Origin: a virus
Length of the DNA: 58,179 nt
IMG/VR virus record: IMGVR_UViG_3300046747_000371
Coordinates: 1-58,179 of that record
Direction: 5' to 3' (one strand)
The translations under genes and the position numbers were made by a program. The notes below the pieces were generated by a model. That model made no database searches, was not told the origin of the DNA, and saw nothing but the letters and a program-made list of their open reading frames with translations. This document shows, piece after piece, positions 19,769-27,336 of the stretch (positions are counted from its first letter, which is position 1; every line of letters begins with the position of its first letter).

Positions 19769-20455
19769 ATGGTCTATTTCGTAATCGGCGAGGGCACTCG
19801 CATGCTCAAGATTGGCAAGGCCGACGACGTCGCGCTGCGCGTCAAGGATCTGCAGGTCGGAAGCCCAGCGGTGCTGCGTGTCGCGTTGCTTTGCTCGGGC
19901 GGACTTGCCGAAGAGGGCGCGCTGCACAGACGCTTTGCGGAGCATCGCCGGCACGGCGAGTGGTTTGTCGCGGATGCGATTCTGAGCGAGTGCGCGGCAT
20001 GGACAGAGGAGACGCGAGTCTGCCAGGCGTGCGGTCATGAACGCGACCGCCACGCACAACGCTTCTGCCGCGCGCGCATCGAGCGCTTTCGCGCAGTGTA
20101 CGGCCGCGCTCTTCAGGAGCGACACCAGTACCGGTGCCTCTATCGAAGCGAGAACGGCAGGGCTTGCCGCACGCAAGTGCGAGGCGCGCTCTTCTGCGCG
20201 CAGCACGCTAGGCCGCACACGCCGTCTGAGCAGGAGCTCGACTGGGAGTACGGCGGGCCTCGGGCAGTCGAGCGTGCCGCTGAGGACAAGCTTTGGGTAG
20301 ACAGGCGCGAAGCAAAGTATCGCGCGATCGAGGAGTACAACGCCGCAGAGCAGATAGCGTGGGACGCGCGTCGTCACGCCGATCAGCGCGCACGAGAGCA
20401 GGAGACGCTGGACGCCCAGGTCCGGCTCGCTGCGCGTCAGGCAGTCGGGCAGTGA
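19769..20455 (+). CDS. T5orf172-like (GIY-YIG superfamily) protein, 228 aa
   Basis: The N-terminal 70 residues match the T5 orf172 / Mug113 type of GIY-YIG fold: VYFVIGEG, LKIGKADDVALRVKDLQ, a strand around LRVALL, then ALHRRFAEHRRHGEWF. A Cys/His cluster follows (VCQACGHERDRHAQRFC and CLYRSENGRACRTQV...FCAQH), then a charged helical tail. Such genes are often selfish or mobile nucleases or DNA-binding proteins in phages. It sits between portal and the MuF head gene, with reduced codon bias, suggesting insertion. Confidence 0.65.
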   Translation: MVYFVIGEGTRMLKIGKADDVALRVKDLQVGSPAVLRVALLCSGGLAEEGALHRRFAEHRRHGEWFVADAILSECAAWTEETRVCQACGHERDRHAQRFCRARIERFRAVYGRALQERHQYRCLYRSENGRACRTQVRGALFCAQHARPHTPSEQELDWEYGGPRAVERAAEDKLWVDRREAKYRAIEEYNAAEQIAWDARRHADQRAREQETLDAQVRLAARQAVGQ

Positions 20456-20474: not shown

Positions 20475-21110
20475 ATGAGCGACGACACTGAGACGGACTA
20501 CCCGCAGGACTATGACCAGCTGGAGCGCGCCATCAGGCGCACTCCAAAGCTGCACATGCCGGGCGTTGCGACGAAGCTGCGAGCGCTTGGCTATCTGACC
20601 AGCCTAGTCGAGCGCAACGACGCATGCCTGAACCGAAGTGGCGAGCGACCAGTCGGGGCGATTCTGCTGTGTCCGTACAGCTCACCGCAGCACTGGGACC
20701 ACACGAGGCCGCTGATCTGGCGATGGCACGTCGATCACCACATGGTGAAGTTTCCACTACGCTCTTACAGAGAGCTAAGTCTTGAGTGCTCACGCGACCG
20801 TGACCCGTACCGCAACCCATACTGGACGCGTGCCGCAGACCAGCAGCGCAAGCTAGAGCTGTCCTGCCTGCCTTCTGAGCTGTCTGACATCGCTGCATGG
20901 CTGCCAGCATGGATCGACGCGCGCGACCGTGGAGAGCCGCACCCGAGCTGCAATGTCGCGATGTCGCGTAGTGGAGACGTGCTGGACTACGCGTGGACGG
21001 CTAGCGCTGCGCGGGAGATGGACGCTTGGCAGCAAGCGCAGCAGCAGCGCGAACTCGCACGCCAACAACAGCGACAGGCGCGCGAGCGCCGGCAGGAGAC
21101 CGATGCCTGA
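20475..21110 (+). CDS. hypothetical protein, 211 aa
   Basis: ATG 20475. Contains Trp/His-rich segments (HWDHTRPLIWRWHVDHHM) and a very Gln/Arg-rich C-terminal helix (QQQRELARQQQRQARERR). No family recognised. It shares relaxed codon bias with the preceding T5orf172-like gene, so the two may have arrived together. The stop overlaps the MuF gene start by eight bases. Confidence 0.5.
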   Translation: MSDDTETDYPQDYDQLERAIRRTPKLHMPGVATKLRALGYLTSLVERNDACLNRSGERPVGAILLCPYSSPQHWDHTRPLIWRWHVDHHMVKFPLRSYRELSLECSRDRDPYRNPYWTRAADQQRKLELSCLPSELSDIAAWLPAWIDARDRGEPHPSCNVAMSRSGDVLDYAWTASAAREMDAWQQAQQQRELARQQQRQARERRQETDA

Positions 21111-22782
21111 CAAAGCGCTCACGCTGTACCGCGCAGAGCTGCAGAAGCTGCTAGGCGCCATCCGCCGCGGCGAGCTCGAGCTCGAGGCCGCGCACTCGCA
21201 GCTCGCGACCGACGTCATCGCCAAGCTGCGCGAGGCAACCAAGACGCGCCGCACGACTGCGCAGCTCGAGCAGCTGTTCGATGCGGAGTTCGCAAAGACG
21301 TTCCCGAAGCGCGTGCGCATCGTACGCACGAACATCCGCGAGGGCGCAGACGCAGGACCCGCAGTCGGCAAGCGGACGTTTCGCGCGGTGCTCGGCGAGG
21401 ACGTGGTCGACTCGCAGGTACGCGAGACAGCGGGCGCGATGGCCGAGGCGGCAGACCGCATCGCCGGCCGCATCACCGTCGACAAGGTCGGGCTCACCAA
21501 GCGCATGCGGCGCGTCGACCGCGAGGTCTCGCAGGGCATGGCGCAGGAGGTGCAGCGCGGCATCAAGCAGCAGCGCGGCATCCTCGGCGCAGCGCGCAAG
21601 ATCGAGCGCATCGACCCGCGTAGCGTCGAGCTGCCCAAGTACCTGCAGGAGCTCGAGGCCGCCGCACGCGCAGGCGACAAGGGCGCAGTGCGCGACATCG
21701 CGCGCAGCTACACCAAGCGCATCGCCCAGCTCGGCGAGGTGCAGACTGACGGCACGTTCCTCGCGAGCAAGTACAGCCTCAAGAGCGCCACGAAGAAGTT
21801 CGTCGCGGACGTGCAGACCGCGAGCAGCAAGCAGCTCGACGGCGTCGTGAAGCGCTACGTGAAAGAGAAGCTGGCGTATCAGGCCAACCGCATCGCGCGC
21901 AGCGAGACGGTCGAGGCGATGCGCCAGAGTTACGTCAAGCAGATGGGCGACAAGGCCGGCGTGGTCTGCTTCCAGTGGACGCTGAGCAACCGGCACGCGT
22001 CGGCGCTGCACGGCGGCTCGCGCGAGGACGTCTGCGACATCCTGGCCAACCAGAACGCGTACGGCCTCGGGCCAGGGCGCTACCCCGCTGCGCACGTGCC
22101 GAAGCTGCCGCACCCGAACTGCATTCCGCCAGGGCACATGATCGAGACCAGCGAGGGCGACGTGCCGATCGAGCGCATCGTGCCGGGCATGCTCGTGCGC
22201 ACGCACTCAGGCGCGCTGCGATCTGTGCTGCGCCTGAGCGTGCGCTCGTGGCGTGGGGCGCTTGTCGTCGCGACTATCGGCGACGACAAGCGCCTGGAAG
22301 CGACGCCAGAGCACGAGGTGCTTACCGGCCGTGGCTGGCAGGCGGCGGAGCGTCTTCGCGTGGGTGACCTGGTCGTGACGCTTGTCTCTGCAGAGCGCCG
22401 CTTCACGCCTGCCCTCGTGACGGCGCTCGACCGCGTCGAGTATGACGGCCCGGTGCACAACTTCGCAGTCGCTGTCGACAAGACTTACGTCGTCGGCGGC
22501 ATCGTCGTGCACAACTGCCTCTGCACGGTGCACGCAGTCATCGACCGCAGTCACTTCGACCGCTCTGCAGACGAAGGTCGCGTGCCTGCAGACATGCAGG
22601 ACCACGAGTCGCCCGACGCAACGGCCTGGCTCAAGCAGAACCCCGGCAAGGCGCGCGCCATCCTCGGCCCGACCAGACACGCTGCGCTCGAGCGGGGCGT
22701 GCAGGTGCTCGAGCCGACCGGGCAGATCAAGCGCGTCAGCGCGCTGGTGCAGCGCAGCAGCAGAAAGGCAGGCGCGCGATGA
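21103..22782 (+). CDS. MuF-like head morphogenesis protein containing a mini-intein, 559 aa
   Basis: The extein is a SPP1 gp7 / Mu gpF-type minor head protein: helical N-terminus, then AYQANRIARSETVEAMRQSY and FQWTLSNRHASALHGG, and the family's terminal HPNCxC motif. That motif is split. Residue 340 begins CIPPGHMIE and residue 471 ends VVHN, giving a 132-residue Hint domain between HPN and CLCTVHA. Removing it restores HPNCLC and a 427-residue protein of normal size. ATG 21103 is chosen; upstream in-frame residues belong to the overlapping previous gene. The protein probably enters or lines the capsid next to the portal. Confidence 0.85.
   Translation: MPDKALTLYRAELQKLLGAIRRGELELEAAHSQLATDVIAKLREATKTRRTTAQLEQLFDAEFAKTFPKRVRIVRTNIREGADAGPAVGKRTFRAVLGEDVVDSQVRETAGAMAEAADRIAGRITVDKVGLTKRMRRVDREVSQGMAQEVQRGIKQQRGILGAARKIERIDPRSVELPKYLQELEAAARAGDKGAVRDIARSYTKRIAQLGEVQTDGTFLASKYSLKSATKKFVADVQTASSKQLDGVVKRYVKEKLAYQANRIARSETVEAMRQSYVKQMGDKAGVVCFQWTLSNRHASALHGGSREDVCDILANQNAYGLGPGRYPAAHVPKLPHPNCIPPGHMIETSEGDVPIERIVPGMLVRTHSGALRSVLRLSVRSWRGALVVATIGDDKRLEATPEHEVLTGRGWQAAERLRVGDLVVTLVSAERRFTPALVTALDRVEYDGPVHNFAVAVDKTYVVGGIVVHNCLCTVHAVIDRSHFDRSADEGRVPADMQDHESPDATAWLKQNPGKARAILGPTRHAALERGVQVLEPTGQIKRVSALVQRSSRKAGAR
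22120..22515 (+). other. mini-intein (Hint domain) coding segment, 132 codons, no homing endonuclease
   Basis: Block A starts with C1 (CIPPGHMIETSEGDVPIE). Block B has the T62-x-x-H65 motif (TPEHEVLTG), and the block F/G end is KTYVVGGIVVHN with H131-N132 followed by +1 Cys. These are the nucleophiles needed for class 1 splicing. The residue before T122-Y123, usually His in block F, is Lys. The length leaves no room for an endonuclease, so mobility would need an enzyme in trans. Confidence 0.85.
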
Positions 22783-24223: not shown

Positions 24224-24787
24224 CTACCCTGCAGACGCTTTCAACATTGGCAGATGCTTCCACTTCCGACCCGTCACGACGCGGTGCGCTGTCGTGTGGT
24301 CGACGTGAAACCAGCCAGCAAGCGTCTTCTCGTGGACTTCGTGCGCGACGTGCAGGTACCGCATCAGCATCACGTGAGCGTCGGTTAGTCGCGCTCGGTG
24401 ATGCCTCTGCCCGTGGTACTCGGTGCCGTGCGCAGCGCGGTCTGCTGCGTTCTCCTGAGCAGTGCCCCAGCGAAGGTTTTCGAGACGGTTGTTCGTCGGG
24501 TCCCGGTCAGGGAAGTGGCACGCCTGAAGGCCAGGAGGGCGCGCGCCGACGAACGCTTCCAGTACGAGGCAGTGCACGCCTACGGGGCGACTTTGCTCGC
24601 CTGATTTCAGGCTTAGCGACACAACCAGGTGCCCGTACTGGTTACCGGGATACTGACGCAGCAGGCGCGGCTCTCGCCGGACGCCACCCTGGAAGTCTCG
24701 CCAGCTGCGCACGCGACCTTGGTCGCTCACTTCGTACTTCTCAAAACCGACAGTTGGCAACCAACGCTCAGACTCAGGTGCATCCAT
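24224..24787 (-). CDS. free-standing HNH homing endonuclease (NUMOD4 + HNH_3), 187 aa
   Basis: Encoded antisense in the gap between scaffold and capsid genes. The N-terminus is a NUMOD4 module (RWLPTVGFEKYEVSDQGRVR). The centre is an HNH_3-type nuclease (HCLVLEAFVGARP, then CHFPDRDPTNNRLENLRWGT) with the conserved His, His and Asn. A C-terminal helix-turn-helix-like segment (TLAGWFHVDHTTAHRVVTG) would recognise DNA. ATG 24787 gives the natural NUMOD4 start; ATG 24829 is a longer alternative. This is a typical self-propagating intergenic homing gene. Codon use is less GC3-biased than neighbours. Confidence 0.85.
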   Translation of the reverse strand: MDAPESERWLPTVGFEKYEVSDQGRVRSWRDFQGGVRREPRLLRQYPGNQYGHLVVSLSLKSGEQSRPVGVHCLVLEAFVGARPPGLQACHFPDRDPTNNRLENLRWGTAQENAADRAAHGTEYHGQRHHRARLTDAHVMLMRYLHVAHEVHEKTLAGWFHVDHTTAHRVVTGRKWKHLPMLKASAG

Positions 24788-24828
24788 TGCCTGCAGTGTA
24801 CCTGAGCATCTGAAAGGCGGGTATTCCA

Positions 24829-26103
24829 TTGAGTTTTACTCTGTACGAAGCGGCTAAGATCGCCCGAAACCCACTCACTCGCGGCGTGTTCCTCGGCATC
24901 GCTGTCACGAACGAGCTCTTCAGCCGAATGCAGTTCGTGCCGAAGTCTGGCTCCGCGTGGACATACGCTCGAGAGAAAGCGCTGCCCACGATCGAGTTCG
25001 TCGATCCCGCCAACCCCGTCACCGTCGAGTCGTCCGCGACGTTCGACGACGTGACTGTGCCGCTGCGTCTCATCGAGACCGACGTCGACGTGCTCAACAC
25101 GACGCTCAACCAGAACGACCCGAACGGCGACCCGCGCGCCATCCAGCTCAAGCAGAAGCTCAAGGCGCTGGGCATGAAGCTGCAGGACCGCATGTTCGGC
25201 GGCGGCTACGTGACGAGCGCAACGTTCGATCGCCCAGCCGTGTCGCCCGCTGCTGCGCTCGTGTTCGTCAGCGCCAGCGCGCACACAGACTCGTTCCGGT
25301 TCGGACCGGGTGACATCAAGTACACGCACGCCGGCACGCTCTGGAGCTACCGCGCGCCCGGCGACCGCACGTTCGGCGCGCCTGTCGCTGTCGCCGCGAA
25401 CTCGACCAACGTCGTGCTCAGCTCCGACAACCCCAACAAGAAGATCGTTCTCAACATCACGGTCGCCAGCGCGACTGCAGACGGCGTCGTGTCGGTCAAC
25501 TTCGCGACGACCACGCACGAGTTCGACGGTCTGCCGAAGCTCTGCCCCGCGACGCAGACCGTCGCGTCGACCGGCGTAGACGGTGACGCGCTGAGCTTCG
25601 ACGTCATGGACCAGCTGCTCTTCGAGAAGCTCAAGGAGCGCGACAACGCCTGCTTCTTCATGAACAGCAAGCTCAAGCGCAAGTTCATGGCGCTCGCGCG
25701 CAGCGCAGCGGGCGGCATGATGCCCGAGCAGCTCGCGATTCCGGTGCTCGGGATGAACGGGCAGCCCTCGCAGATTCTGGTGCCGCACTACAACGGCTAT
25801 CCGATCTTCCAGGTCGACGACGTGCCGAGCAACGAGGCCAAGGGCGCGAGCACGAACCTGTCGTCGCTGTACATCGCATCTCTGGCTGCAGAGCAGGGTC
25901 TGTACTTCGGCGTGCAGCAGGAGAGCGAGCAGGCGCTGGCGAACCTGACGCCGTTCGACGCGCTGATCGGCGGCGTGAAGATGTACGACATCGGGCAGCT
26001 CGAGGCGAAGGCGGCGTTCCGCACGCGCCTCGAGTGGTACGGCTCGCTCGCACTCGGCACCGAGTACGCCATCGCGCGCGCCTCCGAGATCAAGACCACC
26101 TGA
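24829..26103 (+). CDS. major capsid protein, 424 aa
   Basis: Resembles HK97-fold capsid proteins of tailed phages whose N-terminus reads like SFTLYEAAKIARNPLTRGVF, with the following TYAREKALPTIEFVDP and TFDDVTVPLRL strands and the C-terminal domain ending GIGGVKMYDIGQLE-type sequence. An insertion at about residues 130-220 could be a surface domain. Start is TTG 24829 with GAAAGGCGG eight bases upstream. A TTG start for the most abundant virion protein is odd and may result from the adjacent HNH insertion. A real start further upstream is excluded by stops. Confidence 0.78.
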   Translation: MSFTLYEAAKIARNPLTRGVFLGIAVTNELFSRMQFVPKSGSAWTYAREKALPTIEFVDPANPVTVESSATFDDVTVPLRLIETDVDVLNTTLNQNDPNGDPRAIQLKQKLKALGMKLQDRMFGGGYVTSATFDRPAVSPAAALVFVSASAHTDSFRFGPGDIKYTHAGTLWSYRAPGDRTFGAPVAVAANSTNVVLSSDNPNKKIVLNITVASATADGVVSVNFATTTHEFDGLPKLCPATQTVASTGVDGDALSFDVMDQLLFEKLKERDNACFFMNSKLKRKFMALARSAAGGMMPEQLAIPVLGMNGQPSQILVPHYNGYPIFQVDDVPSNEAKGASTNLSSLYIASLAAEQGLYFGVQQESEQALANLTPFDALIGGVKMYDIGQLEAKAAFRTRLEWYGSLALGTEYAIARASEIKTT

Positions 26104-26142: not shown

Positions 26143-27336
26143 ATGGCACTCTCGCTAACCGACGTCCCGTATGAGCCAGCGACCCAGTACACGGATCGCT
26201 GGCTGTTCGTGCTCAGCGACGAGCTACAGGGCGAGCACGGCGGCACCTTCTTCGAGCTCGGCGTCGCGACACGCGAGGTCGACGTGCGCTGTCTGCGCAA
26301 GTTCATCTGCGCGCACCCGGTCGAGGGCGCGCGGCGCACCTTCGGCGAGCGCCTCGACCTCGGCGACTGCACCAAGCTCGGCAAGCCGCCCAAGCCGCCT
26401 GACCCTGGCGAAGGCGAAGAGGGCGGCGGCGAAGAGAGCGGCGAAGGCGAAGGCGAAGGCGAAGGCCCCATCGGCGGCACGCTGCCCACTGCGCCCGGCG
26501 TCGACAACGCCTTGCCAGGTGAACAGCCCGGCATCGACCACGAGCTACCTGGCGAGCGCCCTCCCATCGGCAGCACGCTGCCAGAGGGGCCGGCGATCGA
26601 CAACGAGCTGCCGCGCCCTGGACTGCCGCCGCTGGGCAGCACGCTGCCAGAGGGGCCAGGCATCGACAACACGCTGCCGCGCCCTGAGCTACCTGACGAG
26701 CTGCCGCCGCTGGGCACGACGCTTCCGACGCGCCCTGGCGTCGACAACGAACTGCCCGGCGAGCAGCCCGGCATCGACAACGAGCTGCCGCCCGACCGTC
26801 CGCCCATCGGCGTGACGCTGCCCGAGGGGCCGCGCCCCGGCAACGAGCTGCCGCGTCCCGAGCTGCCGGACGAGCTGCCGCCGTTCGGCACGACGCTGCC
26901 CGAGCGGCCCGAGGGCGGCAACCTGCCAGCCATCCCCGAGGCTGGGCAAGAGCTACCGGGCGAGCAGCCCGGCATCGACAACGAGCTGCCGCCTGAGCTG
27001 CCGCCCATCGGCAGCACGCTGCCGGAGCGTCCTGGCATCGACAACGAACTGCCTCGTCCAGAGCTGCCCGACGAGCTGCCGCCCTTCGGAACGACGCTGC
27101 CCACCCGGCCTGGCGTCGACAACGAGCTCCCTGGCGAACAGCCGGACATCGACAACGAACTGCCGCCCGAGCCGCCTCCCATCGGCACGACGCTGCCGAC
27201 GCGGCCAGGCATCGACAACGTGCTGCCCGAGCCTGAGCCGCCGCCTGCTGCTCGCGAGCGCGCGCCCATCCCGCCGCCGCCGAAGCCCAGCTGGAGCGAG
27301 AAGCTCACGGGCAAGGGCAAGGGCAAGAGCAAGTGA
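26143..27336 (+). CDS. proline-rich 'DNELP' repeat protein, 397 aa
   Basis: A folded N-terminal part (about residues 1-85, FELGVATREVDVRCLRKF) is followed by an acidic Glu/Gly linker. Then come nine repeats built from PPIGSTLPERPGIDNELP-like units with intervening PRPELPDEL spacers. It ends in a Lys/Gly-rich tail (GKGKGKSK). The repeats should form an extended, proline-rich rod. Position between capsid and connector genes suggests a virion surface or head-fibre protein. The codon repetition also generates a long antisense frame that I treat as an artefact. No catalytic motif. Confidence 0.65.
   Translation: MALSLTDVPYEPATQYTDRWLFVLSDELQGEHGGTFFELGVATREVDVRCLRKFICAHPVEGARRTFGERLDLGDCTKLGKPPKPPDPGEGEEGGGEESGEGEGEGEGPIGGTLPTAPGVDNALPGEQPGIDHELPGERPPIGSTLPEGPAIDNELPRPGLPPLGSTLPEGPGIDNTLPRPELPDELPPLGTTLPTRPGVDNELPGEQPGIDNELPPDRPPIGVTLPEGPRPGNELPRPELPDELPPFGTTLPERPEGGNLPAIPEAGQELPGEQPGIDNELPPELPPIGSTLPERPGIDNELPRPELPDELPPFGTTLPTRPGVDNELPGEQPDIDNELPPEPPPIGTTLPTRPGIDNVLPEPEPPPAARERAPIPPPPKPSWSEKLTGKGKGKSK

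Follow-up and report, generated by a model that had tools for sequence, protein, structure and literature searches.

In textbook inteins, mobility comes from an endonuclease domain that belongs to the intein itself. Homing endonucleases of the EDxHD/Vsr-like kind, for example I-Bth0305I, are known as free-standing or intron-linked genes, as are the fractured genes that carry split inteins. MuF inteins are already in the literature: the Jerseyvirus UPWr_S phages have an intein-containing capsid morphogenesis protein (PMC8425127), and a minor head protein with an intein has also been described (PMC7468147). The target in both cases is of the same kind as here, and the accessible parts of these two papers report the intein and do not mention an antisense endonuclease. 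In UPWr_S2, we find a 272-residue intein between HPN and C.

The nearest precedent for the arrangement described below is the ShiLan insert in phage methylases, which contains a hidden out-of-frame HNH endonuclease (PMC11855218). As here, the endonuclease lies in another frame, the host frame is open and the sense reading is unfolded. Unlike here, the endonuclease is on the same strand, is of the HNH type and comes without a splicing domain, and the report mentions neither antisense coding nor MuF. Nuclear group I introns in myxomycete rDNA do have antisense homing endonuclease genes, i.e., genes opposite to the strand of the mobile element (PMC9548176), but they are RNA introns, so their sense strand need not be translated. 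The MuF intein is therefore of a known kind, and our literature search, whose coverage was incomplete, found no earlier report of an antisense homing endonuclease gene in an intein.

The sequence analysed here ("the window") is the whole of IMG/VR virus record IMGVR_UViG_3300046747_000371 (G000; 58,179 bases, 67.8% GC). We consider it very probable that the window contains a mini-intein from a widespread homing group whose endonuclease is encoded by a separate, overlapping gene on the opposite strand.

The mini-intein of the head protein gene

The features of the head protein gene are listed in Table 1. Its product has 559 residues with the intein and 427 without it (339 + 88). We assign it to the MuF / SPP1 gp7 type because its extein matches phage head-morphogenesis families and it carries the HPNC motif, which is unbroken in an intein-less relative.

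Table 1. Features of the head protein gene and its intein (window coordinates)
Feature	Position	Strand	Basis
MuF-type minor head protein gene, intein in frame	21103..22782	+	ATG start, frame open throughout; phrog_1657 profile match, 1.9e-20
N-extein, 339 residues, C-terminal HPN	21103..22119	+	alignment with intein-less relatives
Mini-intein, 132 residues	22120..22515	+	Hint_2 7.8e-10; Mtu RecA intein structures 8e-5; missing in L151 and L158
C1, first splice residue	22120..22122	+	invariant in alignment A5
Block B T-P-E-H (T62-P-E-H65)	22303..22314	+	T and H invariant in alignment A5
Approximate insertion point of the sister inteins' 185-273-residue insert with antisense endonuclease gene	22395..22396	.	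alignment A5
Blocks F and G, VHNFAVAVDKTYVVGGIVVHN	22453..22515	+	alignment A5
K121 of block F	22480-22482	+	alignment A5
H131-N132, terminal intein residues	22510-22515	+	alignment A5
C-extein, 88 residues, starting at the +1 Cys (CLC)	22516..22782	+	alignment with intein-less relatives
Weak antisense match to the endonuclease HMM (E 7e-5), Hint block B only	22222..22416	-	HMM

Searched against Pfam, the 132-codon segment matches Hint_2 above the cut-off, Intein_splicing below it (8e-5) and, weakly, PT-HINT. It also matches structures of the Mtu RecA mini-intein by sequence, in an alignment that reaches the terminal HN. It has the residues of a class 1 intein (C1, a TxxH block B, terminal HN and a +1 Cys), and at 132 residues, with no insert between blocks B and F, it is a mini-intein. 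With class 1 inteins and mini-inteins (nearest structure the Mtu RecA splicing domain, 2in0), the group shares the Hint fold, these residues and insertion into a conserved motif. Unlike them, its members with a mobility gene have it on the opposite strand, outside the intein protein, and the block F His is usually missing.

When spliced in silico, the extein aligns end to end with two intein-less relatives: L151 (79% identical, HPNCLC intact) and L158 (53%, with HPLCLC). Unbroken sites are also present in phages SETP3, Ent1 and MA12. The original prediction, made before any database search, placed a mini-intein with C1, a TxxH block B, a terminal His-Asn, a +1 Cys and a Lys in block F between HPN and CLC of a MuF protein, with excision leaving 427 residues, and every one of these elements is present. 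It named two outcomes that would count against it, and both failed to appear: the profile search of the segment gave a Hint match, and there are close MuF homologues that lack the segment. Window positions 22120-22515 are thus a confirmed mini-intein splitting the HPNCLC motif. Judging by its motifs, its fold and the empty sites, it most likely excises itself and restores HPNCLC.

It is very unlikely that the Hint domain has lost its splicing activity and now serves in processing or as a structural part of the head protein. The weak PT-HINT match would suit such a role and splicing is predicted, but intein-less homologues keep the motif intact, the catalytic residues are complete (including the +1 Cys), and among Jerseyviruses presence at a single site is variable. 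As for the suggestion that splicing controls head assembly, none of the findings speaks for it.

The MuF target and the Lys in place of the block F His had both been called unusual, and neither description stands. A single peptide pattern confirmed inteins at this MuF site in 386 viral stretches, one intein query matched 120 cultured-phage records, and the block F His is missing in nearly the whole family (alignment A5), so Lys is no special defect. The target, site and Lys121 of the window intein are ordinary for its family. Another MuF mini-intein, of 140 residues, occurs in L196. The only cultured-phage match to the window's own intein is in Microcystis phage Mvi-JY20 (L051 668-4033, +), where a mini-intein lies in an apparent DNA polymerase I gene.

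Other features were seen near the head protein gene. Upstream, 19769-20455 (+) encodes a protein with MUG113 and T5orf172 (GIY-YIG-like) matches. Downstream, 24227-24829 (-) encodes a NUMOD4 + HNH_3 protein, probably a free-standing homing endonuclease, adjoining an ORF at 24829-26103 that looks like a major capsid protein, judged by position. A 397-residue ORF at 26143-27336 (+) contains many DNELPGEQPGIDNELP/PPIGSTLP-type repeats.

Endonuclease genes opposite related inteins

A first search found seven loci. Two of them, L004 and L008, belong to a single contig that has the same allele as the window. The other five have inteins of 304 or 392 residues at the window's site, and two later finds (L014 and L015) have inteins of 383 and 385 residues. 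The N-exteins of these sister phages are approximately 98% identical to the window's. Between blocks B and F, their inteins hold an insert of 185-273 residues whose sense reading resembles nothing. Read from the opposite strand with the codon register kept, the same insert encodes a protein with an HTH and a nuclease domain.

This antisense protein matches Pfam MTES_1575 at 1.9e-10, above the curated cut-off, and DUF559 at 1e-3. An AlphaFold model of one family member (L025) has a pLDDT of 86.6, and its top Foldseek matches are 3hrl, I-Bth0305I (3r3p) and Vsr (1cw0 and 1vsr), all with probability 1.00 but E 0.013-0.024. The antisense proteins share conserved E, D, E and WH-type positions (alignment A3), and their predicted nuclease fold is close to those of 3r3p and Vsr. 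We therefore classify the protein as a predicted HTH + Vsr-like (EDxHD/Vsr-like) homing endonuclease. In the sense direction, the modelled L003 intein has a confident Hint-like fold at residues 1-90 and 265-304 (TM 0.77 against the Mtu RecA intein, 2in0) and is disordered between them. A canonical in-frame endonuclease is absent from these relatives: the nuclease is found in the antisense frame only. The lack of an endonuclease had been noted as an oddity; it is a state of the window allele, and relatives encode an endonuclease on the opposite strand. In Salmonella phage LPSE1, the antisense ORF by itself hit no Pfam family at E 0.01, although the group HMM matches it at 7e-60.

The arrangement recurs in several scans. 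Scanning with the endonuclease alignment gave 36 loci, and in all 27 that were analysed the sense frame facing the endonuclease in register 0 runs without a break; its ends can usually be recognised as MuF-type. Scanning with the intein C-terminus found the antisense endonuclease inside the sense ORF and in the same register at 80/80 kept viral loci, and an antisense endonuclease at 14/14 loci in contigs from bacteria and MAGs (including records of Gordonia, Glycomyces, Ornatilinea and Micromonospora), but the pattern used (GHVY) overlaps the endonuclease start and so is biased towards carriers. In a less biased Hint-N scan, the antisense gene lies inside 61 of about 80. An endonuclease query matched 130 cultured-phage records, and in the seven checked in detail (Salmonella phages LPSE1 and vB_StyS-sam, Gordonia phage Angelicage, one Pseudomonas, one Vibrio and two Klebsiella phages) the endonuclease is always opposite the head protein gene. 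A scan of bacterial and MAG contigs with the endonuclease alignment confirmed no relative, which reflects the query, since the C-terminus scan found its 14 endonuclease-bearing loci there. The arrangement is also present in contigs of 35-50% GC.

Some existing annotations cover parts of this arrangement. The PHROG 15127 "head protein" model takes in a MuF extein and an intein together with the antisense endonuclease gene as read in sense; almost the full length of the Klebsiella phage RCIP0015 protein matches this model (1.7e-197). In vB_StyS-sam, part of the antisense endonuclease frame (L160 1626-2027, -) is annotated as hypothetical protein gp43, which adjoins another hypothetical ORF inside the intein. 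Antisense-endonuclease inteins also occur beyond MuF, with exteins that are UDG-like (L205), weakly Terminase_3-like (L228) or unassigned (L202).

Coding on both strands

Substitutions show which strand is constrained in each part of the intein. Sense position 1 of a codon faces antisense position 3. Between L002 and L003, differences in the insert fall at antisense codon positions 1/2/3 as 21/16/48, with synonymous/non-synonymous counts of 34/29 for the antisense frame and 8/55 for the sense frame; the C-terminal part of the Hint domain has few changes, with sense-frame polarity. Across 12 close pairs, the insert has 584/237/378 differences at sense positions 1/2/3, compared to 838/632/1266 in the N-extein, and the insert polarity agrees in 11 of the 12. 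Between the Salmonella phages LPSE1 and vB_StyS-sam, the counts at sense positions in the insert are 20/5/3, and the synonymous/non-synonymous counts are 17/8 antisense and 1/24 sense. The sense frame also lacks stop codons: none occur in 63 non-redundant inteins (180.7 expected from third-base usage) or in the 27 loci (89 expected), with the caveat that all statistics here and below treat related sequences as independent. By computation, both frames are under selection: the antisense frame within the insert, the sense frame beyond it.

These results bear on whether the antisense frame could be a chance ORF opposite a GC-rich gene, with the insert as the decayed remains of an in-frame endonuclease domain. 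The extein of these GC-rich phages does have long antisense frames opposite it, and GC-rich third positions favour them. However, the antisense protein matches a nuclease family above the curated cut-off and has a confident fold while the sense insert has none, substitutions spare the antisense protein, and the arrangement is kept at 35-50% GC. Homology, fold and codon-position tests lead us to reject high GC as the source of the frame, and we regard the combined proposal of chance ORF and decayed domain as extremely improbable.

Codon usage in the splice blocks points to expression signals for the antisense gene. In inteins with GHVY, block F read from the opposite strand commonly shows GGAG or a variant of it, followed after 8-9 bases by ATG or GTG. 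The GHVY His codon is CAT in 52/65 (125/451 in exteins, p 7e-16), and the Leu codon is CTC or CTT in 60/65 (p 3e-17). Antisense to the last splice block (G) is a TATAAT-like box, which is perfect in 23/79 and matches at least 5 of 6 positions in 61/79; drawing codons from the same genes' exteins gives expectations of 1.7% and 24%. The Ile at -3 is encoded by ATA in 30/51, compared to 94/793 (p 3e-14). A simple promoter scan of LPSE1 found no full two-box sigma-70 site, so the evidence supports a -10 box but falls short of proving a promoter. In the window's sister group, GGAGAG precedes the likely start codon, a GTG on the border of the insert, and the -10 match is only weak.

We judge it likely that these inteins form a large natural phage group in which both strands code, with a splicing domain on the sense strand and a self-contained endonuclease gene on the other whose signals lie within splice-block codons. 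The endonuclease gene of the relatives is separate from the intein it overlaps, not fused to it in frame. Its -10-like box lies antisense to block G. The ribosome-binding site and the start codon are opposite block F (or, in the window's sister phages, at the insert border), and the gene ends in a stop codon opposite the N-terminal portion of the intein. Read in sense, the gene gives a disordered loop at the position in the Hint fold where an endonuclease usually sits, and its freedom from stops keeps the precursor translatable. Splicing of the precursor and transcription and translation of the antisense gene are predicted steps, as is DNA cleavage: MuF alleles without the intein are probably cut by the Vsr-like enzyme and then acquire an intein copy during repair.

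Inteins may have come to hide an endonuclease in a different frame on more than one occasion, because related inteins hold either an antisense zinc-ribbon gene in another register or a same-strand Vsr-like gene in the +1 frame. The first type occurs in the MuF inteins of L176 (2302-3126, -) and L177 (647-1534, -), whose zinc-ribbon proteins have an HNH-like stretch by eye (with NUMOD3 at 1e-6 in L176), and looks like an independent origin of the antisense layout. The second is seen in L181 (716-1501, +), where an MTES_1575 gene lies inside the intein ORF, and L224 (2739-3545, +) and L178 (2754-3452, +) appear similar, with Vsr/MTES_1575-like genes. These +1-frame genes recall ShiLan, but they sit in real inteins. 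In L182 and L214, a Vsr-like stretch is in the sense frame.

Homing and the window allele

Jerseyviruses and their kin provide occupied and empty versions of the same site. The gene matches 406 records, of which 58 have at least 80% of the intein-bearing gene and 70 match the intein; SETP3, Ent1 and MA12 have an empty site (347 residues vs 619). Between Salmonella phages dunkel and vB_StyS-sam, nucleotide identity is 70.9% in the N-extein, 100% in the intein and 96.8% in the C-extein. By computation, this pattern in cultured isolates carries the footprint expected of copying by homing with co-conversion.

Mosaics also occur among the metagenomic relatives: L003 changes partner approximately 100 bp into the intein, and L005 and L006 do not differ until the intein ends, after which they are 88% alike. 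Homing could produce these breakpoints, but so could chimeric assembly of metagenome contigs, so we treat them only as a hint and use the cultured Salmonella phages as evidence instead. We rejected circularity for the 66-kb sister contig, whose ends overlap in the intein without an exact repeat.

A similar contrast, which also fits homing, separates the window from L002: they are 98.5% identical in the N-extein but only 77% and 69% in the two Hint halves. No nuclease match was found in the window intein beyond the one antisense to block B, which may mirror Hint codons, so we do not claim an endonuclease remnant. Where L002 has GTG and GGAGAG at the start and ribosome-binding site, the window has GCG and GGGCAG. 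We lean towards the endonuclease gene having been lost from the window allele rather than never present, because the endonuclease is so widespread. An ancestral mini-intein that never had an endonuclease, with the antisense gene joining the sister lineage later, is possible, though we doubt it. It would agree with the Hint tree, which places the window as sister to the endonuclease-bearing L002, L003, L005, L014 and L015 and not nested among them, and with the second MuF mini-intein in L196. Against it, all the scans turned up the endonuclease far more often than the mini form, and the altered start and ribosome-binding site fit loss, short of proof. Under loss or original absence alike, the window allele has neither the endonuclease gene nor its signals; it is probably maintained as an immobile form that only splices.

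For the family, this arrangement means that splicing and mobility share DNA but use opposite strands, which allows the endonuclease to be produced and to evolve independently. In-frame endonuclease searches would file such inteins as having unknown inserts, and the antisense gene accounts for the meaningless appearance of these inserts in current annotation (e.g., PHROG 15127). Cultured phages of this group offer a large natural example of antisense dual coding that can be put to the test. The group also suggests how free-standing endonucleases and split inteins might arise, and it may supply new site-specific nucleases.
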